Below are positions 13,121-45,023 of a stretch of 64,000 bases of DNA, one piece after another. Made by a program: the position numbers and the translations under genes. This stretch comes from Mesostigma viride (Eukaryota > Streptophyta > Mesostigmatophyceae > Mesostigmatales > Mesostigmataceae). The notes below the pieces were generated by a model. The model was not told where the DNA came from, ran no database searches, and saw only the letters and a program-made list of their open reading frames with translations. Position 1 is the stretch's first letter, and each line of letters opens with the position of its first letter. The stretch covers positions 2,313,638 to 2,377,637 of the forward strand of contig RPFO01000389.1 in NCBI GenBank assembly GCA_009746045.1, written 5' to 3'.

Positions 13121-14281
13121 GGGTTACCGTACTGGGTTCACCTGAAGATCCGTCATTTTATTGACGAGTTCCATCTGTGTCCCAACAACTTCAAGCGGGT
13201 CATTCATTGCACAAGCGGTAATTGCTAAACATTAATTGTATCATTTGATTGTGATTGTTGCTTGCATACATTGACTGTGGCCTATCTGTTCACATGGAAA
13301 GCTGATGTAATATTGTTTTTTTTTTTTTCTGTTTGTACTATATATGCAGGGAAGGCTATGGCGAGCGGATCACTTCGTGGCAGGCTGAAGGTCCTCGGTC
13401 TGAACCCGGAGCTGTGGCGGCCTGATGAAGACCCTCCAGCGGAGGGAGACCCACCACCGGAGGGAGACCCTCCACCGGAGGGAGACCCTCCACCGGAGGG
13501 AGACCACCAAAGTCCACCGAAGAAAGGCCGCAAGAAGAAGAGGGCGCCAGCACCGCGCCCCGGGTTCCAGCTGACGGCTGAGGAAAAGGCTGATATCAAG
13601 CGTAAGTGTGACATTGGGTTTTTATTTTTCCCGTAATTTGGAAATTTAATATGTAGGACTGACTATGGTCTGTGTGATTTACATAGGACTGACTATTTTT
13701 TTCGGCTGTCGTGTTACTACTATGTGTTATTTTTTTGCGTGTGGTTGTAATGCGCAGGTCTCGATGACATCATGGCGCATAGCCTACCCGACTACTTCAC
13801 CGGCCGGATCAGTGGTTTGCTCTGCGATGCGAAGAGTACTGAAAAATCCAAGACGCGTGACAAAATCCTCTACTTTTGCAAGCAACTCCCGACCATCTTG
13901 CGTGGGCGGTTAGATGACGATGCACGGCATGCATTTCTCCTTCAATCAGCGGCCTGGGACTTTGTGTTTTCTAGCGGCCCGGCGACTCAGCAACAGTTGG
14001 ATGACTGCGGCGAGATGTTTTTGCTTGCTGCTGTGGCGATGGAGCGTATAGCGCCAGCGTCTGAGATGGCAAAATCTGTTCATATGATGGCCCACCTGGC
14101 CCAGCAAATCCCCTTGTTGGGTCGATGTGACACCCGCACCATGGCGTCGGGCGAGCGGATGATGGGGGCCATCACGAAAGCTAAGCTGTCCAACGTCGAT
14201 GTGGAGAGCTCCATGGACGGAGCATATCGCAAGTCTGAGGCGCTGACCCATCTGGCCTATCACATGGTGAAAACCGGGATG
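13121..14281 (+). CDS. CACTA transposase, middle exons
   Basis: Exon to 13217 encodes LPYWVHLKIRHFIDEFHLCPNN, equivalent to the tnp2 LPYW..L.IRH..D.MH block. Exon 13350-13601 starts GKAMASGSLRGRLKVLGL and includes four 18-bp repeats coding DPPPEG, a linker expansion. Exon 13758-14281 encodes a KSHDCH/LLP-like region (ILYFCKQLPTILRG) and the DUF4218-like segment VHMMAHLAQQIPLLG..ASGERMMGAITK. All junctions have GT..AG and keep phase: 13218-13349, 13602-13757, then the donor at 14282. Function: DDE transposition of the CACTA element. Coding integrity here is good. Confidence 0.85.
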
Positions 14282-14341
14282 GTAAGTACACGCTAGTGAC
14301 CGATTTTTTTTTTTTTTATGGTGTCCATGTTCCCAGTAAAA

Positions 14342-16100: not shown

Positions 16101-16250
16101 CGTGGGAGCGCTAACAATGGATTTGTGTGCAGATTTAGTGTTATGTACGCGCTGCTTGTGGCCCGGTCTTGTGCTGCATGCAGCTAATTTCTGTGCATAA
16201 TTGTGTGCGCTGCTTGCAATGTCTTGTTTGCTTTCTTTTTTTTCTTTCAG

Positions 16251-19200
16251 CCAAAAGACCGCTACTACATCTGGGACGTCATCCACGCAGACCCGTCCAA
16301 GAAGGTCGAGTTGGGGGGGCGCAGCCGCAAGGTTAAGAATAGTTACGTTAAACAGTGCCGGAACCTTTTTGCCGCCTGAGGCAAATCGGGCCGGAACACT
16401 ATTTTGCCCGGAATAACCACTTCCGAGCACCCAAGTTAATTCGGCCGAATTAACTTGGGTGCTCGGAAGTGGTTATTCCGGGCAAAATAGTGTTCCGGCC
16501 CGATTTGCCTCAGGCGGCAAAAAGGTTCCGGCACTGTTTAACGTAACTAAAACCTGGCCTCGTGGAGGGGGGACGAAGAGCCCGAGACATCCGCCTAGGC
16601 CGCTGAGCACGCACCACTAAATGCGCCGGAGCTGCCTCAGTGAGGATTCGAACCCCTGACCTCCAAGGTGCACAGGTTTTAGTTACGTTAAACAGTGCCG
16701 GAACCTTTTTGCCGCCTGAGGCAAATCGGGCCGGAACACTATTTTGCCCGGAATAACCACTTCCGAGCACCCAAGTTAATTCGGCCGAATTAACTTGGGT
16801 GCTCGGAAGTGGTTATTCCGGGCAAAATAGTGTTCCGGCCCGATTTGCCTCAGGCGGCAAAAAGGTTCCGGCACTGTTTAACGTAACTAAAACCTGTGCA
16901 CCTTGGAGGTCAGGGGTTCGAATCCTCACTGAGGCAGCTCCGGCGCATTTAGTGGTGCGTGCTCAGCGGCCTAGGCGGATGTCTCGGGCTCTTCGTCCCC
17001 CCTCCACGAGGCCAGGTTTTAGTTACGTTAAACAGTGCCGGAACCTTTTTGCCGCCTGAGGCAAATCGGGCCGGAACACTATTTTGCCCGGAATAACCAC
17101 TTCCGAGCACCCAAGTTAATTCGGCCGAATTAACTTGGGTGCTCGGAAGTGGTTATTCCGGGCAAAATAGTGTTCCGGCCCGATTTGCCTCAGGCGGCAA
17201 AAAGGTTCCGGCACTGTTTAACGTAACTAGAATTTCTACACTTTCACCGCCGCGGAATCTGATGAAGTGGGCGCGATTTTGTTGGAGTATGCGCTGCCCA
17301 ATGCGGAGTACAAAGATCCCGAAGTCAACGGCGATGAGGCCTACTGGTAAGACGCCGCTGTCCTATTATTGTAAGTTGCTATTCTTTGAGCTGATTTTCT
17401 TTCAGTATATGGAACTTCATCTGATTTCCAAGGACTACTGCCGTTATTCTAATTTTTTTTTTCTTGCATTGCTATCTTGCTTTGTATACGATGTGAATGC
17501 AGGCGGCCCTTGTGCAGCGACCTCTCATGGCTCAAAGACTGGATCGGACTCAACCAGCAGCCGCTGGTCCCGGAGCTTGTCCAGGCTGCAGCAGCCGGCG
17601 TGCAGCTCAAGGCTGAGGAGTACATGATAGGGTGCACTTGTATGTACGGTTTCAATTACCGGACAAAAGAAGCTGACAGGAAGCAAGCATGGCGGACTGC
17701 AAACTGTGGTGTAGCCTACCATAAGGAGGGAAGCAGCACTCAGTACGGCTACCTGACCCACATTCTCGTGGCGAAGCTGGTGCAGCCGGTGGGGCAGTGG
17801 ACTCAACAGCTTGTGCTGAGAGTAGAGCTTTTCGATGCATCGGAGGTGGCTTACATTCGGGATCAACGCTTGGTGTTGGTCCGCAGCGCCGAGGCACCAC
17901 GCACGGCAAAGCTAGTGTGGCCAACATCTGTTAGCTCTGTTGGGTTTGTGCTGGACCCACGGCATCAGCCCCAGCTTTCGGTCATTCACTGCAAGCTGCC
18001 CCGTCACCTGGCAACCGGGTGGGCTTTGGAGAACGAGTTTTTCCAAAGCACGGCGACAAGGTGGCAGGAAGACATCAGGTACTTCCCACCTGAGCCGCCC
18101 GCTGAACGGCCGCCCGCTGAACCGCCGCCCGCTGATCCGCCGCCCGCGCCAGCGAGCACGGCGGCACGACCCATCAAGTTTCGTTTAAGTGGCCAGCCGG
18201 AGCGGCTGCTTAGGTTTTAGCGGGCAAGTGTTCGAAGCGCGTCATTGGTGGATTACTGGGGAACTTGGGTTTCCCCGCGAAACTCCAACCGCACGTTCAG
18301 ATTTCCAAATCTCAAGTAAGGTTCGGCGCAACTTTCTGAACGGGGGCAGTTGACGAGCAGCATTCCTCCGGACGAATGAATTGCGTTCCATACTTGCGCA
18401 AAATTTTGAAAGGTGGCTTGCGTGCAGCCCTACTAAAATTTGCGCGGACGTTCAGATTTCCATATCTCAAGTAAATTTCGGCGGAACTTTCTGAACGGGG
18501 GTAGTTGGCGGGCAGCGTTCCTCCAGACGAATGAAATGCGTTCCATACTAGCGCAAAATTTTGAAAGGTAGCTTGCGTGCAGCCCTACTAAAATTTGCGC
18601 GAAGTGTGGGACTGAAAATTCGTAACGGAAACTTTTTGGTAGTTGCCGTCACTTCCTCTTGTGCAAACGTGTGGGAGTGAAAATTGGTAACGGAAACTTT
18701 TTGGTAGTTGCAGTCACTTCATTTTGCGCGAGTGTTGGGCTGAAAATTCGTAACGGAAACTTTTTGGTAGTTGCCGTCACTTCCTTTGGTTCGACTGAAA
18801 ATTCGCTGAAATTCGCTGAATTCGTACCGTGGCCTAATTTTTAGTACCTCGAAGTGACGGGGCACCTAAAAATTTGCCCACAAGTACACTTGGCAGCGCG
18901 CTCACTGGGAAAAATTGTACAGCCGCTCCGGCGGGCCACTTGAACGAATTGTAATGTTCACGCGCAGCCCCGCCGCGCAAGAAAAAGAAGCCGCCCGATG
19001 AACGGCAGCCCGCGCCGGCAACCACGGCGGCAGGACCTTCACGCGCAGCCCCGCCTCGCAAGCAAAAGAAGCCGCCCGCTGAACGGCAGCCTGCGCCGGC
19101 AACCACGGCGGCAGAACCCTCACGCGCAGCCCCGCCTCGCAAGAGAAAGAAGAAATCTGAGGCTTTGGCGCCTGCATCACACAAGGGGAAGGAGCCCACG

Positions 19201-19320
19201 CCCCCGTTGCGCACAAGTGCACGCGCGCGCACGGTCAGGGACTATAGAGAACAAACCCCTAGCAACGAGGGGAATGACAGTGATTTTAACGGTAGTGATG
19301 CCAAGGATGATTCTGATTGA
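16251..19320 (+). CDS. CACTA transposase, 3' exons (DUF4216-like and basic tail), interrupted twice
   Basis: The exon opens after TTTCTTTCAG at 16251 with PKDRYYIWDVIHADPSKK. It is interrupted at 16340 by array 1 and resumes at 17234; without array 1 and one AGAAT it reads ..KVKNFYTFT... The donor follows 17347 and the next exon starts at 17503 (..DEAYW/RPLCSDLSWLKDW, in phase). That exon contains the DUF4216-like GYLTHILVAKL..LRVELFD, then PAE/PPAD repeats. Insertion K (18173-18954) interrupts it, so translation stops at 18220 inside K. Beyond K the frame continues with three PSRAAPPRK.KKPPAERQ-type basic repeats, an acidic end (SNEGNDSDFNGSDAKDDSD) and stop at 19320. An AATAAA at 19392 is a plausible poly(A) signal. 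As it stands the gene cannot make a full protein. Confidence 0.75.
16341..17228. mobile_element. palindromic composite element, array 1 (HP-Y-HP-Y'-HP)
   Basis: Three identical 208-bp near-perfect palindromes lie at 16341-16548, 16681-16888 and 17021-17228. They begin AGTTACGTTAAACAGTGCCG and end with its inverse. Two 132-bp spacers, 16549-16680 (Y) and 16889-17020 (Y'), are exact inverses of each other. The whole 888 bp is flanked by AGAAT at 16336-16340 and 17229-17233. It has no ORF of its own; frames seen in it are palindrome artefacts. It must have been mobilised in trans. The spacer carries a tRNA T-arm-like segment (GGGGTTCGAATCCTC). Confidence 0.9.
18173..18954. mobile_element. inverted-repeat non-autonomous element K in transposase exon
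   Basis: The left end (ATCAAGTTTCGTTTAAGTGG then CCAGCCGGAGCGGCTG) and right end (CAGCCGCTCCGGCGGGCCAC then TTGAACGAATTGTAAT) are inverse copies with few mismatches over about 36 bp. The interior holds two ~155-bp tandem repeats (from about 18292 and 18448, sharing ACGTTCAGATTTCCA). It also holds three ~64-bp repeats (18611-18800, sharing GTAACGGAAACTTTTTGG). There is no ORF. K splits the Pro/Ala-rich C-terminus of the transposase (PAPASTAARP / SRAAPPRKK). The exact target duplication is not resolved. Confidence 0.7.
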
Positions 19321-19391
19321 TGCTGCTGCGCCAGCATTTTGCGGCCTCATTAGATGCTGCACACAAGTGTAATCATGCCGATATTATGTTG

Positions 19392-19397
19392 AATAAA
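19392..19397 (+). terminator. putative poly(A) signal of CACTA transposase
   Basis: AATAAA lies 72 bp after the stop at 19320 and just before the right subterminal array. It is positional evidence only. Confidence 0.4.
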
Positions 19398-19439
19398 GAT
19401 GCATCATTCATTGTTTGGGCCTAAACTGACTTGTTGTCG

Positions 19440-19814
19440 GTTCAGCCCTTGTATTTTTTACCACTTTTGTGCTCGTCGTGGTGTTCTTGTTACCACTTTG
19501 GCCACTTTTTATCACTTTTTACCACTTTTACCACTTTTTATCACTTTTTACCACTTTTTACCACTTTTTACCACTTTTTACCACCATTTTCCACCTTTCA
19601 CCACTTTTACCACCTCCGTTAGGTGGTAAAAGTCGCTTTAGGTGGTTTTTCATCACTTTTTATCACTTTTTATCTCTTTTTATCACTTTTTACCACTTTT
19701 TATCTCTTTTTACCACTTTATACCACTTGTGGGTGGTAAAAAGTGATAAAAAGCGATAAAAAGTGATAAAAAGTGATAAAAGTGGTATTTTTTACCACCC
19801 CTGAGTTCCTAGTG
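19440..19814. repeat. CACTA right subterminal array and terminal inverted repeat
   Basis: The complementary motif TTTTTACCAC/TTTTTATCAC is repeated from about 19447 to 19735. It then inverts to GTGGTAAAAAGTGATAAAAA before the final CTGAGTTCCTAGTG. The motif matches the left array in inverse orientation, with more TATCAC variants, so the two ends have drifted separately. Confidence 0.85.
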
Positions 19815-21141
19815 CAGACCTACGCTAGTCGACCACACACTAGGAAGCCCTTAGTTATATACAACGATTCCTTACGGAATCGATACTAAGTGCTTAGTAT
19901 CGATTCCGTAAGGAATCGTTGTATATAACTAAAACTTTTGCTTGCGCCGGCAAGGCTAAGGCCGATACTAGTCGGGTCATCGAATTGGCTATTCGATTAT
20001 CGAAGTTGCCTATTCGACCATCGAACTTTCCTATTTGATTATCGAATTTTTCCTTATTCGATTGTCGAAATTTCCTAGTCGACAGGGGGTCAGAGGCCAG
20101 CGGCCTATCATACTCGGCGCCCAGCGAGCCACCGAACTAGGCCTAGTCGATTATAGCGAGACATCGCGTGGAAATTAGCCGATTTTGGGGACTTAGCCGA
20201 TTTTCGGAGCGACGTCGAACAACACAGATGATTAGCCGGTTGAGCACATCATATCAGTCGAATAGCTAGCGCTGGTACTCCGCCTAGTCAGCGGAGAGCA
20301 CTTGCCTTTTTCGATTAACATAGCACATTAGGCCGAACGATTAGCGTCCGCAACGTTATTCGCATTTCTAGGCGAAAAATCCACCCCCGGAACGATCCTA
20401 GCGGGATTCGAACCCGGGATGCCGGCGTGTCGCAACAGTCTTAGTTATATACAATGATTCCTTACGAAATCGATACTAAGCGCTTAGTATAGATTCCGTA
20501 AGGAATCGTTGTATATAACTAAGACTGTTGCGACACGCCGGCATCCCGGGTTCGAATCCCGCTAGGATCGTTCCGGGGGTGGATTTTTCGCCTAGAAATG
20601 CGAATAACGTTGCGGACGCTAATCGTTCGGCCTAATGTGCTATGTTAATCGAAAAAGGCAAGTGCTCTCCGCTGACTAGGCGGAGTACCAGCGCTAGCTA
20701 TTCGACTGATATGATGTGCTCAACCGGCTAATCATCTGTGTTGTTCGACGTCGCTCCGAAAATCAAAGTCCCCGAAATCGGCTAATTTCCACGCGATGTC
20801 TCGCTATAATCGACTAGGCCTAGTTCGGTGGCTCGCTGGGCGCCGAGTATGATAGGCCGCTGGCCTCTGACCCCCTGTCGACTAGGAAATTTCGACAATC
20901 GAATAAGGAAAAATTCGATAATCAAATAGGAAAGTTCGATGGTCGAATAGGCAACTTCGATAATCGAATAGCCATTCTATTAACCGTGGAACTCCAAGGT
21001 AACCAGACTCTTTATTAAAACAATAAGTAGAGCACATCGGGAAGTGGCCCTCAACTGGCCATCCTTACCCATGGGAACACTTTATGTCCAAAAAGGCTAG
21101 CCTTACCCCCAAACAGGCAACACACAGGGAGGGCGGGTGGG

Positions 21142-21653
21142 AAAACAAAAGAGACCGCCATGAGCTAGGTGAGCAAGCTTTTATCGTGTTTCAAGGCCAA
21201 TGGCTCTCTACCAACGGCCAGATCCGGCAACGGCCTCTAAACAGTTTTAGCCGTCAAGTTTTACTTCAGATACTGCTTGTTGCAAACCCGTCCGCAATCA
21301 CAGATCTGCTAGGAGAACCTAGACGCAAAAATCCGTCGTCAAGGTACTCAGCACACCGTCAAGGTATGGGCCGCAACAATTAGGCCATATCATCCGTAAT
21401 ACTCGTACACTAGAAGCCTAATCAACCTTATTACGATCACATCACCCAGCTCTATTTCACCTAGCATCAGCGGCTCCCCTTCCGTATCACTATAAAGAAA
21501 CTATGTTCAGAGAACCCCGATTCTATTAACCGTGGAACTCCAGGTAACCAGACTCTTTATTAAAACAATAAGTAGAGCACATCGGGAAGTGGCCCTCAAC
21601 TGGCCATCCTTACCCATGGGAACACTTTATGTCCAAAAAGGCTAGCCTTACCC
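21142..21653 (-). repeat. D2 internal B1-A2 repeats
   Basis: B1 (21520-21653) duplicates the B2 terminus at 20974-21108. A2 (21142-21519) duplicates A1 at 25980-26357. The block sits downstream of the recombinase gene, as in PAT/Ngaro elements. Confidence 0.88.
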
Positions 21654-21729
21654 TTACATCCCTCCCTGGCGACCCAAGCCAGGGGCAAAACAAAAACCGG
21701 TGGACGCATAAGACAAGAATGAAGGGAAC

Positions 21730-22398
21730 TTAAGAGGAAGGCAGAGAAAAGACGCTCCGCCAAATGCGCGGGGGGCAGGCGGCGATAGCCCGAACCAGGG
21801 CGTCAGGAAGGGTGAGGGCCAAGCTCCGGTGCAATCCCACATAGTGGGCGACAGTTTTGCTGCTGCGCCAGCGACCCCGATGCTGAATATCAGCCATGCT
21901 GCGCTGCCGCAAAAAATCATAGGTAGCCCCCCCATGCCGCAGCCCGTGAATGGTAAACACCGTGTCGACCCCCAAAGCTTGCGTGGCCTGATGCCAAACC
22001 CGGCTGAACTGGGCATAATCGTAAGGGAACACCCGCTCCCAGGCCGCCTTGCCACGCATACAAGCCCGCAAGAGGGTCTCAGTCATGACATCCTCGATCA
22101 CCACAGACTGCACCTCCCCCTTAGCCGTCTTAGCTGACATCAACAACAAGGCGCCCCGCTGCGAACCCCGCAACCGAACATCAGGCTGCAAGCGCACATG
22201 GCCGACCAACAGGTTGAGCGCCTCCGATACCCGCAGGTATTGTTGGAAAATAACGATGACCATCATAGCCGCACGAGGCTGCCGCTGGAGCACCATAGTA
22301 CAAGCAAGCGCAAACGCAGCCTCCCATGGAATGGGGGGGGGGCACGAGGGGGTGCCAACGTGCGCCAGCCAGCCAAAACACTTCGTGCCAAGGCCCAA
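21730..22398 (-). CDS. tyrosine recombinase domain of D2
   Basis: This is the C-terminal catalytic part of the recombinase. YLRVSEALNLLV holds the first Arg, SAKTAKGEVQ the beta-hairpin Lys, HGLRHGG the His-x-x-Arg box, HRGRW the second His/Trp position and VAHYVG the nucleophilic Tyr, so the R-K-HxxR-W-Y set is complete. Upstream, in another frame (22181-22996), lies the N-terminal helical domain, so a frameshift near 22350 splits the gene. The enzyme would integrate the circular cDNA. Stop at 21730. Confidence 0.9.
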   Translation of the reverse strand: MGLGTKCFGWLAHVGTPSCPPPIPWEAAFALACTMVLQRQPRAAMMVIVIFQQYLRVSEALNLLVGHVRLQPDVRLRGSQRGALLLMSAKTAKGEVQSVVIEDVMTETLLRACMRGKAAWERVFPYDYAQFSRVWHQATQALGVDTVFTIHGLRHGGATYDFLRQRSMADIQHRGRWRSSKTVAHYVGLHRSLALTLPDALVRAIAACPPRIWRSVFSLPSS

Positions 22399-23060
22399 TC
22401 CCGCACCTCCCGGGGAAGTACAAATTCAGGCCCATAAGCGCATTGACACACAACTGGCGGCTGTAACACCGTGAGTGCGCCCAAGCGACATACTCGCAAT
22501 AGTATTCCTCTATCGTCAAGCCGCGCAACAAGCTGCCAACCCGACCCCGCCGGCTCGCCCACCATGCGAAAAAGGACCTAAGACCCCGATGGTAAACCAT
22601 CAAAGTAGCCGGCTTCACCTTGCCCTCAAGAAGGGTCAAGTAGCTAGCGCCAAGCCGAGGCCCGGGATTGGGATGAACACCCTCGCGAGTCAAATCGCGG
22701 ACCCACCCGGCCACCGAGGCAGCCATGGAAAGCCCCCGCGAAGGCCCATCCGCAGGCTGAAGCTCACTTGGCGTCCAGACCCATTGTGAGCGGCTGCCGG
22801 TGACCAACGTAAGAGCGCACAACCGGCGGCATTGCTTGTTTAACCGGTAAGAAGAGGAACGCCCTTTAGCCAAGCAGCCCAAAGCGGCAGTGGAGTCCAC
22901 TAACCTCACCACCCGCTTACCCCATGTTCCGAGGTTCCGGGCCGAGCGCTCCACCCCCTTCACAGCGGCCCGCACTTCCTTCTCGTTGATGTGCATGGTC
23001 GAATCGCGCCAGCGACTCTTGATCCCTACGCGCCATCGCCCGTGGATGATGGCTTTTCCG
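22181..23060 (-). CDS. D2 RNase H C-terminal part, 2A-like motif and recombinase N-terminus
   Basis: HINEKEVRAAV (RNase H Glu), VRLVDSTAALG (Asp) and LQPADGPSRG (Asp) are followed by REGVHPNPGP, a 2A-like string. A recombinase N-terminal domain follows (KPATLMVYHRGLRSFFAWW..YYCEYVAWAH). The frame is displaced from the RT frame by an indel near 23040 and again into the recombinase near 22350, where the residues after VPPPH are out of frame. Sequence otherwise aligns with D1 and D3. Confidence 0.85.
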
Positions 23061-24423
23061 CGGCCTTGGTCAAGGGTCTAGGCCCGGCATACATGGCCTC
23101 ACCTGGGGTGAGGAGGGTTGGGTAACCCCGCACCTCCCGGGCCCGAGCTAATTCCGTCACCTCAGCTGGGGCCATCTCAGCGTAGACAACCCCCTGCCCA
23201 AAACTAGACGCATCCGAGGCCACCACCACCGGAGCCAGGGCAGCCCCCCGGTCCACACGGAGCATGGGGGCCAACGCCATGGCACACTCGAGCTCATCGC
23301 GCACACCTTGCCACAAAGGTCGCGTTCGCTGGCCCCACCCCTTGAGGTTGATGAACTTAAAACTCTGCTGCCATATGGACAAGCAAGTGCGGCTGAGCAT
23401 CTGCAGCCACACCCACCGGCCCACGACGGCCGCCAGCGCCTCAGCGGTAGCGCGTCCCCTCTCGAGGAGTACACGAGTGTGCGCAACCACAAGGGTGAGC
23501 TGCTTAGCTGTCGGCTCCAACACCCCATCCCGCCGGTGAACAACACCCAGAGCTTCTAGCTCGTCCTCCCCCTCCGGGCTAGCCATGATCGTCTTGTCCT
23601 TGGAGGGCACAAGGTTGTTAGGCGCGTACCCGTCTTCAATAGCACTCGCGATTAAGCGATTCACCGCCTCGCACGTGCGCCCATTGCTGACCACCAGGTC
23701 ATCAATAGTGATGGATACCATAGGGGCAGGGGGGTCCTCAAGGTCGATTTGCATCTCCCTCGTGCTCTCCTCCTTGTACTCGATGGCTAGGGCGGTTGGG
23801 TTACCCCATGCATTCCGAAGCACGGTCAGCTCCCCTACACTTGTGAGGCGGTTCACCTGCCGTCTAGGATCCAAAGCGCCCGTGGCATAGAGGACCATCT
23901 CATGGATGGCTTCCCCTAGCGCTACAGCGTGGGAGTGCCCCATGGCCAGCACTTTCAGCACTGGCCACACCCTCCTCCGCCGCCCCGGCAGCCCGACATC
24001 GGTGGACCACACATCAGGTAGCCCTTGATAATCCCACCACCACTCCGGCACTTGGATGGTATAGTAATACGAGACCAGATCGCTCTTGGCCGTGTAGCAC
24101 CGACCCTTGATATAGACCTCCGAGTATATGCCCAGGTGGGGTAACACCGTCTTAGGGGGGTCCACCCACAGTGCGTTCCCCAACTTCTTATTCACAATGA
24201 GCCTTAACTCCCCCACTCCTTTGGCCACCCCAAAACATCCGTCTACCCACTTTGGCCGCGTCTCTCGGAACTCCACCATCCCCACGTCCGCTGCCCTCCC
24301 CATCAACTTGCCCCACTCCGCCATGGTGCACCCTCGGCTGGGGGCAGGTACATTCCAATACCTCGCACTGGCAGCCACCTCCGGCTTGATGCAGTTGGCT
24401 CGCTGGCGTACACCTCTCGCCAA
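23026..24423 (-). CDS. D2 reverse transcriptase and start of RNase H
   Basis: The RT includes KWVDGCFGVAKGVGELRLIVNKK, AKSDLVSYYYTIQVPEWWW (first catalytic Asp), the VWPVLKVLAMGHSHAV connection and SITIDDLVVSNGRT (catalytic Asp pair, about residue 243). The thumb (VHRRDGVLEPTAKQLTLV) and an RNase H start (VVASDASSFGQGVVYAEM) follow. The first ATG is probably not the true start: the ORF continues upstream in another frame (24303-25241) after an indel near 24400. The TIDD motif replaces the usual Y-x-DD. This is the intact reference copy against which D1 breakpoints are recognised. Confidence 0.9.
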   Translation of the reverse strand: MARGVRQRANCIKPEVAASARYWNVPAPSRGCTMAEWGKLMGRAADVGMVEFRETRPKWVDGCFGVAKGVGELRLIVNKKLGNALWVDPPKTVLPHLGIYSEVYIKGRCYTAKSDLVSYYYTIQVPEWWWDYQGLPDVWSTDVGLPGRRRRVWPVLKVLAMGHSHAVALGEAIHEMVLYATGALDPRRQVNRLTSVGELTVLRNAWGNPTALAIEYKEESTREMQIDLEDPPAPMVSITIDDLVVSNGRTCEAVNRLIASAIEDGYAPNNLVPSKDKTIMASPEGEDELEALGVVHRRDGVLEPTAKQLTLVVAHTRVLLERGRATAEALAAVVGRWVWLQMLSRTCLSIWQQSFKFINLKGWGQRTRPLWQGVRDELECAMALAPMLRVDRGAALAPVVVASDASSFGQGVVYAEMAPAEVTELARAREVRGYPTLLTPGEAMYAGPRPLTKAAEKPSSTGDGA

Positions 24424-25241
24424 CTAGGTCGTAGCGCCAGCAAATCCAGCAGCTTCGCCTTTCCTGCCACCTCGCGCTTCGGCAGACTCACCCGCTCCGC
24501 CACAAGTTGTTCATACTTATTACATTTCCCATAGATTAGATCACTTCCTTCTGCGGGGCCTGTCGCAACGCCGGTTACGCGGCGACTGTACCACTCGCAG
24601 TGCTTCTTGACCCTTTTCAGGGCCTCCGCCGTTCCTCTGGAGCACGCGCCTCCAGATTTAGGCGGAGGGTCTGCCCCCCCGTGCCATAGCCAATTCAACC
24701 ACGTAATCACCTTGTGTTGTAGAGTGAAGGTCCGGCGGCGGCGAGTTGCACGCTGGCGTCTGCGTGCTGACCTCACTCTCCCCCACGTAGTGCTTAGAGG
24801 CATTGTAGGAAGAGGCAGTGGGAAGGGGGAGCGGTTTACCCTTTCGGTGTTTACTTGGTTTGCTGGGCCTTGCCCAGCTTCTCCATCATCGTGGCGCTTT
24901 GCAGGGCCATCTTCATGGCCGGGTTGCTCACCAAGGAGGCATCTTCCTTGAGAGCAAGGAGGTGGCCAGCCACCTTCCACCCTCCTGACCCCTGGCTCTC
25001 CACTAGGAGCATGGCTGCCACCACCCTCATGAGATACTCTACCCCAGCCAACTCCCCGGCTGCCGGCCCCAACTCCTTGAAGAGTGTGTCCATGGCCAGG
25101 GCGATGTTCATGACCACCTTCCTGCTTTCCTGGTTCCTCCACCCCCCTTGGCGAGTAGCCATGATCCAACTCTTTATCCCCCCTCCATTGTCGTTGGCAT
25201 CCTCGAGCACCTCGGGGAGCACTCTCTCTTGCACCCTCCAA
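24303..25241 (-). CDS. D2 RT ORF N-terminal region
   Basis: The frame contains a basic stretch (RVRSARRRQRATRRRRTF) then WLNWLWHGGADPPP..EALKRVKKHCEWYSRRVTG..KAKLLDLLALRPSWREVYASE, which is shared with D1. It runs out of frame into the RT after YASE because of an indel. It overlaps ORF1 in another frame at its 5' end; only the part below about 24850 is likely real RT-ORF sequence. The start cannot be set. Confidence 0.6.
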   Translation of the reverse strand: MEGARESAPRGARGCQRQWRGDKELDHGYSPRGVEEPGKQEGGHEHRPGHGHTLQGVGAGSRGVGWGRVSHEGGGSHAPSGEPGVRRVEGGWPPPCSQGRCLLGEQPGHEDGPAKRHDDGEAGQGPANQVNTERVNRSPFPLPLPTMPLSTTWGRVRSARRRQRATRRRRTFTLQHKVITWLNWLWHGGADPPPKSGGACSRGTAEALKRVKKHCEWYSRRVTGVATGPAEGSDLIYGKCNKYEQLVAERVSLPKREVAGKAKLLDLLALRPSWREVYASEPTASSRRWLPVRGIGMYLPPAEGAPWRSGAS

Positions 25242-25909
25242 TTCACCACTTGTGCTCGAGTGGGCAGCGTCACCCCTTTGGTCTTTTTCGGCTTCCTGGA
25301 AGCCCCATCTGCCCCGGCCAGCGCATCCTTCAATTTCGTCAGGAAATCCTCTTCCTCGGACTCCTCCTCCTCCTCCTCTTCTTTGCCCGCCTGCCCCTGC
25401 TTGCCAATAATAGCCGCCAGCTCCAAGAGCTGCTCCCTCACATCCCCCGCGGCCTTTCCCTTGCTCGGGGCTGGGCTTCCGACTTTTTTCGTCCCCTTTT
25501 TCGCCCCTTTCGTGGGCCGGCGTGGTGGCTGCATCTCCTCTTCGTCCGAGTCCGCCAAGTCCCGGGCGCTTTGGAGGGCTGCCACTAGCGCTTCGTTTGG
25601 GTCCGCTGCTGCCAGAATTTCAGGCCCGTCCACGTGGTCGACCAGCAGTCCAACGACGGACTCCAGCTGGGCCGCAGACCACCGGCTGACAGTAGTTACC
25701 CAGTCGGTCCCGAGGACCGCCTCAAAGGCAGCGCACACTTCAGGCAGGCCCGAGCAAGTGGAGAGCTCCTGATGGAGCCTTTTCTTCTGCGTCGGCCAGC
25801 CTAGTCGGCCCTTTCCCGTCTGTTTAGTAGCTGTCGGCACCTCGGGATTAGCTTTCGGTAATTGCTTCCCAGCACCTGTCGAACCTGGCTTCCGCCCGGG
25901 CTTCGGCAT
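24851..25909 (-). CDS. D2 ORF1 (gag-like, function unknown)
   Basis: The ORF is open to 25999, but MPKPGRKPG at 25909 matches the D1 start MPKGRK, so that ATG is preferred. Blocks shared with D1 are LGTDWVTTVSRWSAAQLESVV, LPTRAQVVNWRVQERVLPEVLEDANDNG.GI.SW, GGWRNQESRKVVMNIALAMDTLFKEL and a C-terminal helix ending KLGKAQQ. A run of Glu (GKEEEEEEESEEED) lies in the middle. There is no zinc knuckle. By position it is the structural ORF1 of PAT/DIRS elements, probably the nucleocapsid or particle protein; that role is inferred. Confidence 0.75.
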   Translation of the reverse strand: MPKPGRKPGSTGAGKQLPKANPEVPTATKQTGKGRLGWPTQKKRLHQELSTCSGLPEVCAAFEAVLGTDWVTTVSRWSAAQLESVVGLLVDHVDGPEILAAADPNEALVAALQSARDLADSDEEEMQPPRRPTKGAKKGTKKVGSPAPSKGKAAGDVREQLLELAAIIGKQGQAGKEEEEEEESEEEDFLTKLKDALAGADGASRKPKKTKGVTLPTRAQVVNWRVQERVLPEVLEDANDNGGGIKSWIMATRQGGWRNQESRKVVMNIALAMDTLFKELGPAAGELAGVEYLMRVVAAMLLVESQGSGGWKVAGHLLALKEDASLVSNPAMKMALQSATMMEKLGKAQQTK

Positions 25910-25979
25910 CCCAGCCGCTTTGCAGAAAGGAATTCGGGCGTCAGCTACGCTGCCCCTGACCCCTGTCGCCGCCTTCGTT

Positions 25980-26357
25980 AAAACAAAAGAGACCGCCATG
26001 AGCTAGGTGAGCAAGCTTTTATCGTGTTTCAAGGCCAACGGCTCTCTACCAACGGCCAGATCCGGCAACGGCCTCTAAACAGTTTTAGCCGTCAAGTTTT
26101 ACTTCAGATATTGCTTGTTGCAAACCCGTCCGCAATCACAGATCTGCTAGGAGAACCTAGACGCAAAAATCCGTCGTCAAGGTACTCAGCACACCGTCAA
26201 GGTATGGGCCGCAACAATTAGGCCATATCATCCGTAATACTCGTACACTAGAAGCCTAATCAACCTTATTACGATCACATCACCCAGCTCTATTTCACCT
26301 AGCATCAGCGGCTCCCCTTCCGTATCACTATAAAGAAACTATGTTCAGAGAACCCCG
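25980..26357 (-). repeat. D2 5' terminal repeat A1
   Basis: This is a 378-bp copy of 21142-21519 and forms the 5' end of D2. It ends at the palindrome-arm junction AACCCCG/AATTCG. It probably carries the promoter, since ORF1 begins just inside it. Confidence 0.85.
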
Positions 26358-26491
26358 AATTCGATGACCCGACTAGTATCGGCCTTAGCCTTGCCGGCGC
26401 AAGCAAAAGTTTTAGTTATATACAACGATTCCTTACGGAACCGATACTAAGCGCTTAGTATCGATTCCGTAAGGAATCGTTGTATGTAACT

Positions 26492-27157
26492 CCCTTGGTA
26501 GTCCCACCACCACTCGGGCACCGCGATGGAGTAGTAGTATGACAGGAGGTCGCTCTTGGCGCAGTAGCACCAGCCCTTGATGTAGACCTCCACGAGGATG
26601 CCAAGGTGGGGTAGCAGGATCTTGGGGGGGTCCACCCACAGCAGGTTGCCCAGCTTCCTGTTGACGATGAACCGTAGCTCACCCACCCCCTTGGCCACTC
26701 CAAAGCAGCCATCCACCCACTTGGGCGGCCTCTCCCGGAACGCCACCATGCCCACGCCCGCTGCCCGGCTCATGAGCTTGCCCCATTCAGCCATGGAGCA
26801 TCCCCGGCTGGGCTTGGGCACATTCCAATACTTTGCGCTCGCCACAACCGCTGGCTTGATGCAGTTCTCTTCGCTGGCATATATCTCCCGCCAGCTCGGC
26901 CGCACAGCCAACAGGTCGAGCAGCCGTGCCTTTCCCGCCACCTCCGCCTTCGGTAAACTCACCGCGTCCGCGCGCGGTTGTTCATACTTTTTCTGCTTCC
27001 CATAAATTGCATCAGCACCTTCTTGCTCCTGGCCTGTCGCAACGCCCCCTACGCGGCGACTGTGCCAGGTGCAGTGCCTCTTGACCCTCGCAAGGGCCTC
27101 CTCCCTCAAATTAGAGCACGCCCCTCTATAGGGTTAGGAGGAGGGTCTTGCCCCCCC
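26492..27157 (-). pseudogene. D1 reverse transcriptase, N-terminal fragment
   Basis: Reading down from 27157: a stop near 27135, then GACSNLREEALARVKRHCTWHSRRV, LLDLLAVRPSWREIYASEENCIKPAVVASAKYWN and KWVDGCFGVAKGVGELRFIVNRK. It ends with AKSDLLSYYYSIAVPEWWWDYQG at the P insertion. It is colinear with D2 but has no indel at YASE. E interrupts it upstream and P downstream. It is a fragment of one RT gene now spread over three places. Confidence 0.9.
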
Positions 27158-27845
27158 AGTTAAAGCGCAATGTGTAGGGATAGATAGATTCCAATGCGCG
27201 CGGATAGATTCATCATGAGAATGGTTGGAATGGAGCTTGGTTAAAAATATAGGCTTACAGCACTCGTGCACGTGAGTGCTTAGACACGAAATTGCCAAGT
27301 CAAGGCAACACGCGTGAAGCGGTCTCGCAAGCTGACCAGTTGGCACTGGCCTATTCTTTATAAACTTGTTCACTGTGCTTTGCTATGCATGAGCAGCATC
27401 GTCTGGCCTGCTCAGTATTAACACCCCCGGTACTGTATTAACAACCTGTACAGCGTCCAGATCCTATACAGTAGGTCTGCCATACAGGCACAGTGACCAC
27501 AGAGTACAGTCCACAGTGATTATTGCGTCTGCACCTAGAAGTCCAGGACTAAGCCTGCGGTACCAACAGACCACAGGTTAAGGTTCCTATTTCCTGCGTA
27601 CGACGTATTAATCCAATACCGTCGTAGGTTCAGCACCTAATTCCTGTCAGCCCAGGAATTACTGTCGACCCCATATGCCGTCGGCACATATTCACGCAAG
27701 ACTTAGAAGAACAGCCGGCTCGCGCGACCGGGAAGTCGGAACACCATAACTTTCTTGATACTTGTCGGAATGAACTTGTTCTGGTGCCGCTGGAATCGTA
27801 GAGATATGCCGAATCAGGAACACGCCAATGCGCTTGGCGTTAACT
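27158..27845 (-). repeat. E 3' LTR
   Basis: 688 bp, matching 37451-38138 almost throughout. On the minus strand it starts AGTTAACGCCAAGC right after the polypurine tract and ends GCGCTTTAACT. Confidence 0.9.
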
Positions 27846-28227
27846 CCAATCCTTTCTTTTCTTGAGCTGTAGCAGCTCACACAAGTCTACATACAAGCAC
27901 ACACAATGGGTACTGGACATCCTCCCCGACTACAAGTCACAACCCTCTGGGCATGACAGTCAGCTTGGATTCCTTGTTATATGTACATAGCACCCATTAT
28001 TGGTTCAGGAGCACAAACAAATTACAATGAGTCCCTATCCCTTCCTGGGAGGCTCGTTGTGTTACCCATGTACAAAGGTTGGCCAACTGTGGCAGCCCAT
28101 AGGTGTTCAGTGAAGAACTTGAGAAGTATGTACAACCTTCAGGACCTTAGGCGAAACCCCACAGATCACCCACAACAGCTCATCAGAAAACATTGCTGAC
28201 CCCCAGACAGGAGTCGGCGCCGGTAAG

Positions 28228-30125
28228 AGTTACGTTAAATAGTGCCGGAACCTTTTGCCGCCTGAGGCAAATCGGGCCGGAACACTATTTTGCCCGGAAT
28301 AACCACTTCCGAGCACCCAAGTTAATTCGGCCGAACTTGGGTGCTCGGAAGTGGTTATTCCGGGCAAAATAGTGTTCCGGCCCGATTTGCCTCAGGCGGC
28401 AAAAGGTTCCGGCACTATTTAACGTAACTAAAACCTGGCCTCGTGGAGGGGGGACGAAGAGCCCGAGACATCCGCCTAGGCCGCTGAGCACGCACCACTA
28501 AATGCGCCGGAGCTGCCTCAGTGAGGATTCGAACCCCTGACCTCCAAGGTGCAACAGGTTTTAGTTACGTTAAATAGTGCCGGAACCTTTTGCCGCCTGA
28601 GGCAAATCGGGCCGGAACACTATTTTGCCCGGAATAACCACTTCCGAGCACCCAAGTTAATTCGGCCGAATTAACTTGGGTGCTCGGAAGTGGTTATTCC
28701 GGGCAAAATAGTGTTCCGGCCCGATTTGCCTCAGGCGGCAAAAGGTTCCGGCACTATTTAACGTAACTAAAACCTGGCCTCGTGGAGGGGGGACGAAGAG
28801 CCCGAGACATCCGCCTAGGCCGCTGAGCACGCACCACTAAATGCGCCGGAGCTGCCTCAGTGAGGATTCGAACCCCTGACCTCCAAGGTGCAACAGGTTT
28901 TAGTTACGTTAAATAGTGCCGGAACCTTTTGCCGCCTGAGGCAAATCGGGCCGGAACACTATTTTGCCCGGAATAACCACTTCCGAGCACCCAAGTTAAT
29001 TCGGCCGAATTAACTTGGGTGCTCGGAAGTGGTTATTCCGGGCAAAATAGTGTTCCGGCCCGATTTGCCTCAGGCGGCAAAAGGTTCCGGCACTATTTAA
29101 CGTAACTAAAACCTGGCCTCGTGGAGGGGGGACGAAGAGCCCGAGACATCCGCCTAGGCCGCTGAGCACGCACCACTAAATGCGCCGGAGCTGCCTCAGT
29201 GAGGATTCGAACCCCTGACCTCCAAGGTGCAACAGGTTTTAGTTACGTTAAATAGTGCCGGAACCTTTTGCCGCCTGAGGCAAATCGGGCCGGAACACTA
29301 TTTTGCCCGGAATAACCACTTCCGAGCACCCAAGTTAATTCGGCCGAATTAACTTGGGTGCTCGGAAGTGGTTATTCCGGGCAAAAATAGTGTTCCGGCC
29401 CGATTTGCCTCAGGCGGCAAAAGGTTCCGGCACTATTTAACGTAACTAAAACCTGTTGCACCTTGGAGGTCAGGGGGTCGAATCCTCACTGAGGCAGCTC
29501 CGGCGCATTTAGTGGTGCGTGCTCAGCGGCCTAGGCGGATGTCTCGGGCTCTTCGTCCCCCCTCCACGAGGCCAGGTTTTAGTTACGTTAAATAGTGCCG
29601 GAACCTTTTGCCGCCTGAGGCAAATCGGGCCGGAACACTATTTTGCCCGGAATAACCACTTCCGAGCACCCAAGTTAATTCGGCCGAATTAACTTGGGTG
29701 CTCGGAAGTGGTTATTCCGGGCAAAATAGTGTTCCGGCCCGATTTGCCTCAGGCGGCAAAAGGTTCCGGCACTATTTAACGTAACTAAAACCTGTTGCAC
29801 CTTGGAGGTCAGGGGTTCGAATCCTCACTGAGGCAGCTCCGGCGCATTTAGTGGTGCGTGCTCAGCGGCCTAGGCGGATGTCTCGGGCTCTTCGTCCCCC
29901 CTCCACGAGGCCAGGTTTTAGTTACGTTAAATAGTGCCGGAACCTTTTGCCGCCTGAGGCAAATCGGGCCGGAACACTATTTTGCCCGGAATAACCACTT
30001 CCGAGCACCCAAGTTAATTCGGCCGAATTAACTTGGGTGCTCGGAAGTGGTTATTCCGGGCAAAATAGTGTTCCGGCCCGATTTGCCTCAGGCGGCAAAA
30101 GGTTCCGGCACTATTTAACGTAACT
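28228..30125. mobile_element. palindromic composite element, array 2 (six palindromes, five spacers)
   Basis: Six 202-207-bp palindromes start at 28228, 28563, 28902, 29241, 29581 and 29920. They alternate with five 133-bp spacers (28430-28562, 28769-28901, 29108-29240, 29448-29580, 29787-29919). The first three spacers face one way (Y), the last two the other way (Y'). GTAAG flanks the array at 28223-28227 and 30126-30130. Palindromes match array 1 apart from one fewer A in the A-run and GTTAAAT for GTTAAAC. Spacers differ from array 1 by one T (TGTTGCACC against TGTGCACC). The first palindrome lacks four central bases; spacer four has GGGGGTCGAATCC for GGGGTTCGAATCC. No protein is encoded. 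Confidence 0.92.
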
Positions 30126-30520
30126 GTAAGCTGCCCCTTATCGAACCAGATACAACATCTACGCGAAGCACATGCAAAACCACAAGCTCCTATACACTCA
30201 TTCCAACCGTGGAAAATCAGGGGACCTGTCGCCACCTCACCAGCATGGTGGATGGGTCAGCCAGTCCGTGAAACTCCGCCTTAAGACGGCACCAGGGAAT
30301 CGAACCCCGCCCACAAACCACAGATCTGGGGAAACCTCAGACTGAGATGAAAACCCCAGATAGACATCTCTCCATCAGAGACAATGTCAGACATTCCCAC
30401 ACCAGAGACATGTCTCACCCCTCAAGGTGTGCTCGGGATTAATTATGTACAATCAAGCTCCCAGCCTGATATCCAGAGACTTAAGCACCCAGCTCTTAGC
30501 TTTTAGTGTCCAAAAACCAA

Positions 30521-32249
30521 ATGTCCTCATTTGAGGACATAGTCCTCGTTTGAGACGGGGGGGGTCAGGGGCGCGGTTTTGGCGCCAAATTTGGTCCTAG
30601 GGTCACTTGGTGGGTTTTGGCGCGAAACTGGGATAGGTACTGAGCGCGCCAAGCCCCTGGGGTCGACAGGGGTCGACCGTACCTGGAAAATATGAGGCGA
30701 CGAAAAGTACCTACAATCGCATGAGCATCGCAATGCAATCGAGTGTTTTGTCGAGTGGCGGCTATGGGGTCGTGCCAGTTCCGAGGCTTGCCTGAATGTT
30801 ATAGGGCATTATTTTGCCCTGGACGAAGACAGCATTTTAGATCGTCATCTAGTGATTTTGAAGGTGCTATTCTTCACGTGCAGGTGCTTTGTATATGTCA
30901 AAAATTTTGTTCATGAACGGATTTTGGCATTGTTGAAGAAAATCTGAGAGCTACGTAGACCGCATAATAGGTCAGTTCGCAGTTCGGTTTTACAATTTCT
31001 TTTTCCGCCCAGGCGCTGCGGATATCGCGAGTATGGGTTATGGTAAGCTTCTGGGCTTATGGGCGACATGGGGAGAAGAGGGACCCGGGCAGTTGCATGC
31101 ATCAAAGAGTCTCTATTTTTTCGTCGTGATGTCGCAGTCGCGCCTGGCGAAAACCAGGGCGAGCGCGAGCCATATTTTTCTTTTGCCGCAAGGCTGGGTG
31201 CTTCCCACGCGTCACCGTCCTTTAATATATATTTCTTGAGCTGGCCCGCGCAGCTGGCGGCCTGGGCGCATGTCAAGAACAAGGTTCCGACTGTCATTCT
31301 CAACCGCATCGTTCTAAGTAAGCGTGTTAAGCGGATTGTAACCTATAACTCCCGCAGACGTGATAGTTCCGGTTGCTTTCAATGCCCAACTTCGTGGTTT
31401 TGATTACGTTTATGTCCGGGGAATAACGGAAGTTTGCTGGGCAGTACTTTCTTTTCCCGTTGCGTCACTGAAAAGGTAAACGGCCTTGCGTTATCAAAAC
31501 AGCAGCAAGTAGAAGTCGCTGTGCTTAATGGCGATGTGGTAGTTTGATTCAACACATATACTGCCTTGTTGCTGAGAAGTTTTTCAAGGCTTGCTGGTAT
31601 GTTGCCCATATGTTTCTAATGCTTCAACTCATGTCCAAGTGATCAAGACTGGCTTAGAAACTTGAGCTTGTCATGTTTGCATTGTGCTTGTGTTACAACT
31701 TGTGCCTCTTTGCAGTATATGTTTCATATATACCGTAAGGGTTCAACATCATGGTTTAGCACCGTGGTGGCAGCCGAGCCTCTACTAACAATCATGGATC
31801 TAACCTTGGCAAGTATTTGCATCATATTTCACTCTTTGGACTGAGCTAGCTTTACACCTGCTGTTTGGCCTGCACCATGGTCCCTGACTGCCAGTTACAT
31901 TTTGTGCCCCCCCCTGGCAGGCTGCAGGGTCTAGTAGGACTGCGAGGGTGTAACATAGACATGTTGTGGGCACCCTGGGTGCAATTTCAGGACCAGACAT
32001 GACCTGGCCATGCCTTCTTTCTTGGCATATTGTTGACTTGAGTGCTATTTGGTCACTCGCGTAGCGACCCCCCTGCATTCATAAATCGTAAACAATTATA
32101 CAATGAGCATATTTCATGGATGTTAAGCATTGCAACTCTTGAACATATCATAAATGAACATGGTTCCATACCGTACCCATGGATGTGTTGACATGTGTTA
32201 GTTATTACAAATGGTATCCATGCTTAAAAATGTCCTCATTTGAGGACAT
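30521..32249. repeat. segment bounded by identical 20-bp palindromes (Q2)
   Basis: ATGTCCTCATTTGAGGACAT occurs at 30521-30540 and 32230-32249. The 1.7 kb between lies in the 3' UTR of E, directly after its RNase H remnant. It includes GGTCGACAGGGGTCGACC-like repeats (about 30660) and weak frames (31059-31403) with no recognised motif. It may be a non-autonomous insertion of the same kind as Q1. Confidence 0.4.
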
Positions 32250-32867
32250 GTTCTTGGTGATTAGACAATAGGCCAACCATAGACAGATAGACAGATAGGC
32301 CAACCATGCAGTCAGCATTCATGAGCTTCCTCAGTACATTGTACTGGGCTGGGGCCTTGTGTGGCAGCTTGGTCAATGCATCAGCAGGGTTCTCCTCGCC
32401 AGGGATATGCTTCAAGTCAACCAAACTGGCCAACTCCTTCAGCAACAAATAATCCAGATCCCGGCTCCTGGCCAGCTGCTTGTGAACAAACTGGACCATA
32501 CCCATGCTGTCTTTTAGCAACAACGTCTCCATCTGCAAGGACCAAGGGCCCCTTGGTCCGTTACCGAAGTTACGGTAACTGAAGCCAGCTCCAGCATTAA
32601 CTCCTTTATGTACAAGCTGGACTGGATCCCCTCACATATGGCCCTGCATTCTGCCACATCTGAATTGATACAGACCCTCTTCTGCAGTCTGCTGTACCAG
32701 CTGAACAAACTTGCCCTGCTCTGATAGAAAGCAAACAGAGCAGCAGATCTCCCCCTGACCTTAGTGACCTGGCGAGCATCCATGGAACTGTCAACAAAGA
32801 TCTCCAAGGTGTTAGGCTGGGCAAAGTCAATCCCAGACAAAATCAGATCAGGGGTACTCTCCACCAA
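32236..32867 (-). pseudogene. E RNase H remnant
   Basis: Minus-strand pieces in two frames carry EIFVDSSMDARQVTKVRGR (Asp), SDVAECRAICEG (Glu), LLLKDSMGMVQFVHKQLARSRDLDYLLLKEL (Asp) and GEENPADALTKL (Asp), a complete copia RNase H motif set. The two frames are separated by a ~40-bp insert at about 32539-32580. The insert consists of two adjacent palindromes (GGACCAAGGGCCCCTTGGTCC and GTTACCGAAGTTACGGTAAC). The upstream RT is too decayed to trace. Confidence 0.8.
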
Positions 32868-33419
32868 CTGGGCTATGACGATCGAGGCTTCTCATCCTTA
32901 GCACCTCATCAGGCATTCTGCTGTGCATCATCAATGATAGGGCCCACAGGTGGCAGCTAACAAACCACGCCCACATGCCTCTCAACTTGGGACATGTCGT
33001 GATAAGCACTAACATCTCTAGTGGCAAGGACCAAGGGATACATAATATCTGAAGCAAATCCAGCAAACAACGTAATGTTATTCTTAGGCTAGATTGTCCA
33101 GATCCCCTCTCGTAGGTCCTTCAGCCTGCCACATATGCCCTTATCCAGAGCACAGATCAACCCTCACATACAAACTGTACATGTCAGGCTGAAACTCATT
33201 CAGGAGCAACCATACTGATAACCATGAAGCAACCATCATTGCAGGGTACACATAAGCATCAGATGATAGAGGCACTGAGAAGAAAACCCCACCCAGGCTG
33301 AATAAGGCACCACACCGTGGAGCCAACCTTGGGCTACCTCGTGCACAGATCCATATCGCATCTGACAGTGTAACACCCAGGTCAAACATCAGCAAGGTTT
33401 TTCAGTCCCTGAAACATGT

Positions 33420-33665
33420 CCTCAGACCAGCCAACTCCCATATCACCCTGGGAGAAACCAAATCCATGGTTTTACAGCAAAACAGTCGTGGACAGAGTAA
33501 ATCATCCCAAGACCAGCCAACTCCATAATGAGGAGACAACCAAACTATATGGTTTCACAGCATCACATCTGGGATCAATCATAACTTCCAGGCCAGCCAA
33601 CTCCAAACTAGGAGGAAACCAAATCCTATGGTTTTACAGCAACACACCTGGGAACCATCACAACT
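33420..33665. repeat. three ~80-88-bp tandem repeats
   Basis: Units starting near 33423, 33511 and 33591 share CCAGCCAACTCC, an AACCAAA block and ATGGTTT.ACAGCA. They lie in the decayed RT region of E. The open plus-strand frame across them is a by-product. Confidence 0.6.
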
Positions 33666-43603: not shown

Positions 43604-43768
43604 ACGTCGGCCAATTTTATCCAGTGCTCGTCGGCATTTCGTCGACTTTTCAACGGCATTTCGCGGGGGCGGCGGCGACACCGGTGCAGGCGGCATAGTC
43701 GACAGTTGTACATACTTTCTTTTTGCTGCTTTGCTCAGGTGTTCTTAGTCGACAGCTTGTAGTGCACC

Positions 43769-44878: not shown

Positions 44879-45023
44879 CTGTCTGAGGCAACCCCTACAC
44901 ACCTTAATTCACCCAGAGGGGAGGCCAGGTGCTCCAATGCAGATTTTATATCTGGGCAACAAGAGGGTGATCTCCAGGTCAAGGATGGCCCCAGGTCACC
45001 TGGAGAGGTACAGCTAGGTTCCT

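Follow-up and report, generated by a model that had tools for sequence, protein, structure and literature searches.

Three insertions in a 64,000-nt stretch of Mesostigma viride DNA (the window) are built of long palindromes, here termed HP, that alternate with spacers. They lie at 16341–17228 (locus 1), 19853–26491 (locus 2, split by an element that we label DIRS-like), and 28228–30125 (locus 3), and all results on the arrays refer to these three loci. The original prediction, made from the letters alone, was that a palindrome stands at each end of an array and between its spacers, and this shared design is borne out at all three. There are 12 HPs, nine of sequence HP1 (202–208 bp) and three of sequence HP2 (78 bp). 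The spacers form two families, Y (132 bp in locus 1 and 133 bp in locus 3) and Z (512 bp, locus 2). With two HP sequences and two spacer bodies in one architecture, the arrays are a class rather than a single repeat, as had been proposed. The array observation is real and unusual. The features of the three loci, read from the sequence, are as follows.

16336–16340: locus 1, left target-site duplication AGAAT
16341–16548: locus 1, HP1 copy 1, 208-bp perfect palindrome AGTTA..TAACT
16549–16680 (−): locus 1, spacer Y, 132 bp, B box start 16654 on the minus strand
16681–16888: locus 1, central HP1, perfect palindrome
16889–17020 (+): locus 1, spacer Y', B box 16915–16925
17021–17228: locus 1, HP1 copy 3, perfect palindrome
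17229–17233: locus 1, right target-site duplication AGAAT
19848–19852: locus 2, left target-site duplication CCCTT
19853–19930: locus 2, HP2 copy 1, 78 bp, one mismatched pair
19931–20442 (−): locus 2, spacer Z, 512 bp, B box start 20414 on the minus strand
20443–20520: locus 2, central HP2, three mismatched pairs
20521–26413 (+): locus 2, spacer Z', B box 20549–20559, split by the DIRS-like element at about 20975–26361
26414–26491: locus 2, HP2 copy 3, two mismatched pairs
26492–26496: locus 2, right target-site duplication CCCTT
28223–28227: locus 3, left target-site duplication GTAAG
28228–28429: locus 3, HP1 copy 1, 4-bp deletion near centre
28430–28562 (−): locus 3, spacer Y, 133 bp
28563–28768: locus 3, HP1 copy 2, perfect
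28769–28901 (−): locus 3, spacer Y
28902–29107: locus 3, HP1 copy 3, perfect
29108–29240 (−): locus 3, spacer Y
29241–29447: locus 3, central HP1 (divergence point), one extra base
29448–29580 (+): locus 3, spacer Y', one substitution in the B box
29581–29786: locus 3, HP1 copy 5, perfect
29787–29919 (+): locus 3, spacer Y', B box 29814–29824
29920–30125: locus 3, HP1 copy 6, perfect
30126–30130: locus 3, right target-site duplication GTAAG

All 12 HPs start with AGTTA and end with TAACT, in keeping with the constant termini described earlier. The HP1 copies of locus 1 measure 208 bp, and most of those in locus 3 measure 206 bp. The description of the palindromes as perfect is right for seven of the nine HP1 copies, which are fully perfect and have no loop. 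It fails for the HP1 copies at 28228, with its 4-bp deletion, and 29241, with its one extra A, and for all three HP2 copies (one, three, and two mismatched pairs). Outside the three loci, the window holds no palindrome with arms of at least 25 bp.

No open reading frame of at least 150 aa lies wholly inside the arrays besides those of the DIRS-like insert, and frames that touch locus 3 reach 80 aa at most. No homologue was found for a 70-aa frame spanning a spacer and an HP. Patterns for the HP1 end and for the junction plus B box have no exact match in viral contigs, a set from which Mesostigma records are possibly excluded.

Target-Site Duplications and Insertion Sites

A single perfect 5-bp target-site duplication (TSD) surrounds each whole array (AGAAT, CCCTT, and GTAAG), again as first described. 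At spacings of 60 bp to 15 kb the window has 768 AGTTA..TAACT pairs; when these are checked for equal flanking 5-mers, three have equal flanks, and they are precisely the three loci. The expected number is 0.87, calculated from 1098 of 970,810 over all 1024 5-mer pairs; certain other 5-mers give more matches, e.g., AAAAG, with 31 of 2005 pairs.

Empty sites were reconstructed for loci 1 and 2 by joining the flanks with one duplication kept. At locus 1, a single open frame runs across all 67 codons tested. At locus 2, a frame crosses the junction and encodes about twelve recognizably DIRS-like residues before it reaches a stop; its intact-looking counterpart is the frame of the DIRS-like insert itself. 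At none of the loci is one flank an inverted copy of the other. The gene broken by locus 1 (10056–10916, 13751–14296, and 16250–18220) is probably a CACTA-like transposon gene, to which a Transposase_21 domain (10056–10916) and a DUF4218 match below cut-off (13751–14296) would jointly belong. Locus 3 sits within a copia-type element, copia1, described below.

The DIRS-like insert in spacer Z' encodes a tyrosine-recombinase domain (Phage_integrase, PF00589). It carries split direct repeats (20974–21108 / 21520–21653 and 21142–21532 / 25980–26371). By eye it lacks a target duplication, and a short ATTC core is common to its junctions. No relatives of a 200-aa piece of the insert were found in prokaryote genomes. 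Locus 2 fits an older insertion, as its HP2 copies are imperfect and the array has since been interrupted by this tyrosine-recombinase element.

Spacer Orientation and Mirrored Changes

That spacers occur in both orientations was noticed at the outset; the loci read −+, −+, and −−−++. The additional regularity is that all nine spacers, in all three loci, point away from one central HP. Under independent random flips the chance of this layout is about 1/128, for a pattern noticed after the fact.

Units within an array are very similar. In locus 1, there are no differences among the three HPs or between the two spacers. In locus 3, the units differ by one 4-base gap, one inserted base, and one substitution. 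Between these loci, HP1 shows two changes, each of which is found in both arms of every copy, and one base of Y is missing from both locus 1 spacers. From the near-identical units and mirrored changes of loci 1 and 3 it would follow that each array grew from one unit, with one HP arm rewritten from the other. This suggests hairpin-templated copying. If so, mirrored arm changes would be a simple genomic signature of such copying, usable in other genomes.

Ends Shared with Resident copia Elements

The window also contains copia elements, two of which bear on the array ends.

27158–38138 (−): copia1, degraded copia-type element, 688-bp LTRs at 27158–27845 and 37451–38138, host of locus 3
43763–48226 (+): copia2 frames (zinc-knuckle, integrase-like, RVT_2), an example of a possible helper lineage
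49311–49928 (+): copia2 3' LTR, starting AGTTAACG after a polypurine tract at 49293–49310 and ending CAACT

The long terminal repeats (LTRs) of copia1 differ at 8 positions over 688 bp. In its own direction, the copia1 3' LTR opens with AGTTAACG straight after a polypurine tract (PPT) at 27846–27863, and TAACT ends both copia1 LTRs. The element was typed by tblastn with the window's copia protein (32682–33021; 48% and 34%, E 3e-15); its 125-aa frame at 32514–32891 has no Pfam match. For copia2, the zf-CCHC and RVT_2 matches fall below Pfam cut-offs, and the frame at 45018–46586 has no Pfam match and, as sole homologue, a Mesostigma protein (40% over 85%). The copia2 3' region is also copied inverted at 94% (40586–42066 versus 48219–49684), with its own PPT and LTR start. 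This inverted fragment (start 40973, minus strand) repeats the copia2 PPT, with ACTTAACG.

Common copia termini are TGTTA..TAACA, from which AGTTA..TAACT differs only in the outermost bases. Because the copia1 and copia2 LTRs start with AGTTAACG after a PPT and end in TAACT or CAACT, the HPs can be said to carry LTR-type termini. The simplest reading, drawn from these sequence matches, is that the HP ends correspond to the LTR ends of the resident copia lineage.

Both copia LTR starts can form a hairpin, of 7 pairs in copia1 (27815–27845, minus strand) and 10 pairs in copia2 (49311–49342, plus strand). Compared by eye, the two show compensatory changes at two of seven corresponding pairs. Because of these changes, a hairpin at the LTR tip may be ancestral in the two families, and the HPs might be an extreme form of it. 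A structured LTR tip may thus be a trait of the copia lineage.

Neither the outward spacers, nor the mirrored arms, nor the copia link was part of the earlier interpretation, which is partly supported.

The Spacer Heads

The Y and Z spacers had been called unrelated. That holds for the sequence beyond nt 40, where 53 of 500 shuffles score as high as the real comparison, and does not hold for the heads: compared over the first 50 nt in the B-box direction, one Y and one Z give a best local alignment that outscores all 2000 shuffles. The B box GGTTCGAATCC occurs eight times in the window, always inside the spacers. Eight of the nine spacers have it, and in the ninth (locus 3, 29448–29580) it differs by one substitution. 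It starts at spacer nt 27 in locus 1, 28 in locus 3, and 29 in locus 2. The relaxed form GGTTCRANTCC turns up in 17 of 20,000 shuffles of Y and 8 of 5000 shuffles of Z. In both families four of the five T-arm stem pairs are kept (one as G-T in Y), and the same outer pair is broken. Judged by these motifs, the spacer heads resemble the 3' half of a tRNA, and the head with its B box is perhaps an RNA polymerase III (Pol III) promoter.

Where a spacer meets the next HP it ends in GTTTT, which could serve as a Pol III terminator; spacers start with AAAAC (Y) or AAGAC (Z). No clear A box was seen in the spacers by eye.

Several candidates were set aside. Loose Rfam matches in loci 1 and 2 are mostly miRNA-precursor models that fit the palindromes; they fall below gathering thresholds and were rejected as chance. 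Those over the spacers (Dictyoglomi-1, snaR-A, and a beta-tmRNA fragment at 11.7 bits versus a gathering value of 84) were likewise rejected. A permuted tRNA gene, or a tRNA split between HP1 and the spacer (a 7-base GCCTCAG/CTGAGGC match noted by eye), is not claimed, as no counterpart was seen in HP2 and Z.

Proposed Origin of the Arrays

The arrays are best regarded as non-autonomous LTR-type elements of a new variety, in which the terminal repeats are palindromic and the multimers inverted. For their origin, we lean towards the following mechanism, taken as a whole: a non-autonomous element with palindromic LTRs is multimerized by snap-back copying and inserted by a copia integrase. The steps would be these. 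The internal units, with their tRNA-like head and B box, may be transcribed from a Pol III promoter. Multimers would form before integration, when one single-stranded unit, or a short tandem of units, folds onto itself at an HP, which would prime self-copying of the strand. This would produce an inverted dimer bounded by HPs on either side, and the same fold-back step would rewrite one HP arm from the other, so that the palindrome stays near-perfect. If the cDNA terminates 3' in the HP that lies upstream of the spacer head, a self-primed second strand would give the outward layout. The resident copia integrase, whose own LTRs have the same termini, would then recognize the outer AGTTA..TAACT and insert the whole array, creating the 5-bp duplication. 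Growth of an array from one unit and the rewriting of one HP arm from the other would both be explained, because fold-back copying at an HP gives both in one step. The arrays may thus parasitize neighbouring retrotransposons, copying through hairpins. If this is true, a single mobile unit combines foldback structure, a Pol III-type box, and LTR integration, in an organism that branches close to the root of the plant lineage.

A number of observations weigh against this proposal. Neither spacer type has a PPT before the HP: purines make up 40–55% of the 20 nt before the HP, in both spacer types and both orientations, versus 76% (copia1) and 72% (copia2) of the 25 nt before the LTR. Nor does either spacer type have a recognizable primer-binding site (PBS) after the HP. 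Beside the HP there is no TGG, apart from one lying 6 nt inside antisense Y, and the related spacer heads occupy that place; TGG is also missing from the corresponding place in copia1 and copia2. Palindromes without a loop are awkward for simple snap-back. The array of locus 3, with 3+2 units, is not a symmetric dimer and would require an additional gain or loss. In locus 2, the Z copies differ by two substitutions and six gap positions (three of the latter at the insert), and the HP2 differences are one-armed, so no mirroring is displayed there; we read both as later decay with age.

The copia connection has its own difficulties. The outer start of the copia1 5' LTR is AATAA rather than AGTTA (two substitutions), and the copia1 duplication lies within a run of C and is thus weak evidence. 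The 5' LTR of copia2 is truncated, leaving the element without a readable duplication. No AGTTA ends were found in the repeats of a third copia (about 53.9–62.2 kb), which begin ATTTG and end near TAGG in a rearranged region. Derivation of the HP arms from the copia1 LTR, the one copia LTR compared, is unsupported: on the two strands, 297 and 14 of 500 shuffles match the HP1 score, and 470 and 108 of 500 score as high as HP2. As for the tRNA-like heads, ARAGORN calls no tRNA in the window, Rfam at gathering thresholds finds no RNA or tRNA in it, and the GTTTT signal is partly a matter of junction symmetry, since the spacers start with AAAAC or AAGAC.

LTR retrotransposition is understood to require a primer site and a PPT. 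A bolder version of our proposal, offered tentatively and as a good deal less likely, is that the arrays represent a new order of retroelement, again non-autonomous. In it, terminal repeats that are complete palindromes would self-prime, every round of snap-back copying would restore the palindrome as well as generate inverted multimers, palindromy would replace both the tRNA primer and the PPT, and a copia helper sharing the termini would insert the inverted multimers. An element reduced to its integrase ends, with a palindrome apparently in place of both primers, would show how far a retrotransposon parasite can shrink. In principle, it is also possible that the arrays use only the integrase, with copying at the DNA level.

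Alternative Origins and Related Elements

A DNA-transposon origin of the arrays is possible. They have inverted ends and a 5-bp TSD, and no known DNA-transposon superfamily was assigned. Here, the HP would be a complete inverted-repeat element of the foldback or MITE kind, and a transposase acting on AGTTA/TAACT would move any stretch between two such ends, composites included. The palindromic ends, the spacers in both orientations, the precise TSDs, and the lack of a PPT and of a recognizable primer site all suit this idea. There are also known parallels: in the excerpted accounts of Tetris (PMC4079207) and of the SaTar arrays of Mu-like elements (PMC5907723), as in Galileo, foldback and MITE-like elements have long inverted repeats, non-coding members, and multimers. 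The details differ, however. Tetris TSDs are 8–10 bp rather than 5 bp, and its terminal inverted repeats surround a middle domain instead of forming a palindrome at every end and junction (excerpts of PMC4079207). SaTar arrays join unrelated non-autonomous Mu-like elements (excerpts of PMC5907723). LTR-type termini, present on the Mesostigma arrays, are not described in those excerpts for Tetris or SaTar. Moreover, it is copia LTRs preceded by a PPT that bear the same termini in this window, no comparable palindrome lies beyond the three loci, every locus has an inverted centre, and the units of loci 1 and 3 are near-identical. We consider a foldback origin rather unlikely.

The arrays resemble TRIM and SMART elements in having short non-coding internal regions between identical terminal repeats (HP-Y-HP and HP-Z-HP), a 5-bp TSD at all three loci, and putative LTR termini, AGTTA..TAACT as in copia1 (AGTTA..CAACT in copia2). 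Despite this resemblance, they are not a standard TRIM, as they have no PPT and no recognizable PBS. The nearest comparison is with the Cassandra TRIMs, as presented in parts of PMC7215508. Both are small and non-coding with near-identical units, form arrays of terminal repeats and internal regions that share repeats, and have a Pol III-type box; the helper is unknown for Cassandra and would be copia for the arrays. In contrast, Cassandra has the Pol III boxes of 5S RNA inside ordinary LTRs, its arrays are tandem rather than inverted about a centre, and PBS and PPT sites are referred to for it. Template switching or LTR recombination has been proposed for the Cassandra arrays (PMC7215508, same parts).

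The latter account prompts comparison with a TRIM-like LTR element that was inserted as HP-Y-HP and later enlarged and inverted by chromosomal recombination between palindromic HPs. As HPs read alike both ways, an exchange between them can invert spacers, and the 3+2 units of locus 3 hint at a degree of unequal exchange. But inverted multimers at all three loci, with nine of nine spacers outward, are not readily given by random inversions, and the near-identity within loci 1 and 3, set against the differences between them, would require growth soon after insertion. Later recombination is an improbable source of the arrays as a whole.

A linear hairpin-ended replicon, in principle parvovirus- or poxvirus-like with rolling-hairpin copying and occasional integration, would account for perfect palindromes at unit junctions and for near-identical units. 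Rolling-hairpin concatemers alternate in orientation, whereas locus 3 reads −−−++, and the arrays have none of the longer frames noted above as sought and not found. This origin is very unlikely. Least credible is an assembly or library artefact (an unremoved adapter or an inverted chimera): single-molecule reads are known to yield long palindromes spuriously, but here the palindromes have the same termini at three different sites, each bounded by a 5-bp TSD, and the two flanks do not mirror each other. At loci 1 and 2 a reading frame crosses the joined site; one copy is split by the nested DIRS-like insert, and some variants are confined to single units.

Returning to the copia-inserted, snap-back element, a precedent for hairpins at the junction of LTR and internal region is found in fungal GalEa copia elements. 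There, according to the excerpted text of PMC5445492, a Conserved Hairpin Site, the first part of which is palindromic, is proposed to replace the tRNA primer site. GalEa differs from the arrays in that short 9-bp paired sequences stand just after the LTR, in full copia families rather than in arrays or elements with palindromic LTRs. The spacers also share with tRNA-derived short interspersed elements (SINEs) a tRNA-like head with a B box, an unrelated body, and a terminal T-run. Unlike in SINEs, neither a complete tRNA head nor a LINE-like tail was found in the arrays, and LTR-type palindromes flank the spacers. In place of a SINE-type 3' tail with a TSD of variable length, there is GTTTT at the HP and a TSD of 5 bp at all three loci.

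The original prediction had added that no named element was known to have this form. No named element with palindromic LTRs, or with the whole form, was found in the open-access literature, outside of which most subscription journals lie; parts of the form do have the relatives just discussed. The Mesostigma viride genome paper, in the main text of which words beginning with "palindrom" are absent, describes abundant LTR elements and a repeat-annotation pipeline (PMC6947507, main text).

Other Repeats in the Window

The window's copia-type protein (55806–57836, minus strand) matches predicted Mesostigma viride JGI Mesvir1 proteins at 99% over 17% and 84% over 51% of its length; its third and last match, at 52%, is an unnamed protein. 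Two copies of a 1.84-kb copia stretch, inverted relative to each other and 99.5% identical, lie at 54578–56414 and 62163–64000, which would reflect a recent rearrangement or a nested insertion. Tandem repeats of 155 bp, about 64 bp, and 81 bp lie at 18290–18790 and 18957–19152. Tandem arrays of about 10 bp (TTTTTACCAC type) are located at 19467–19790, where they are partly inverted, and at 5395–5540.

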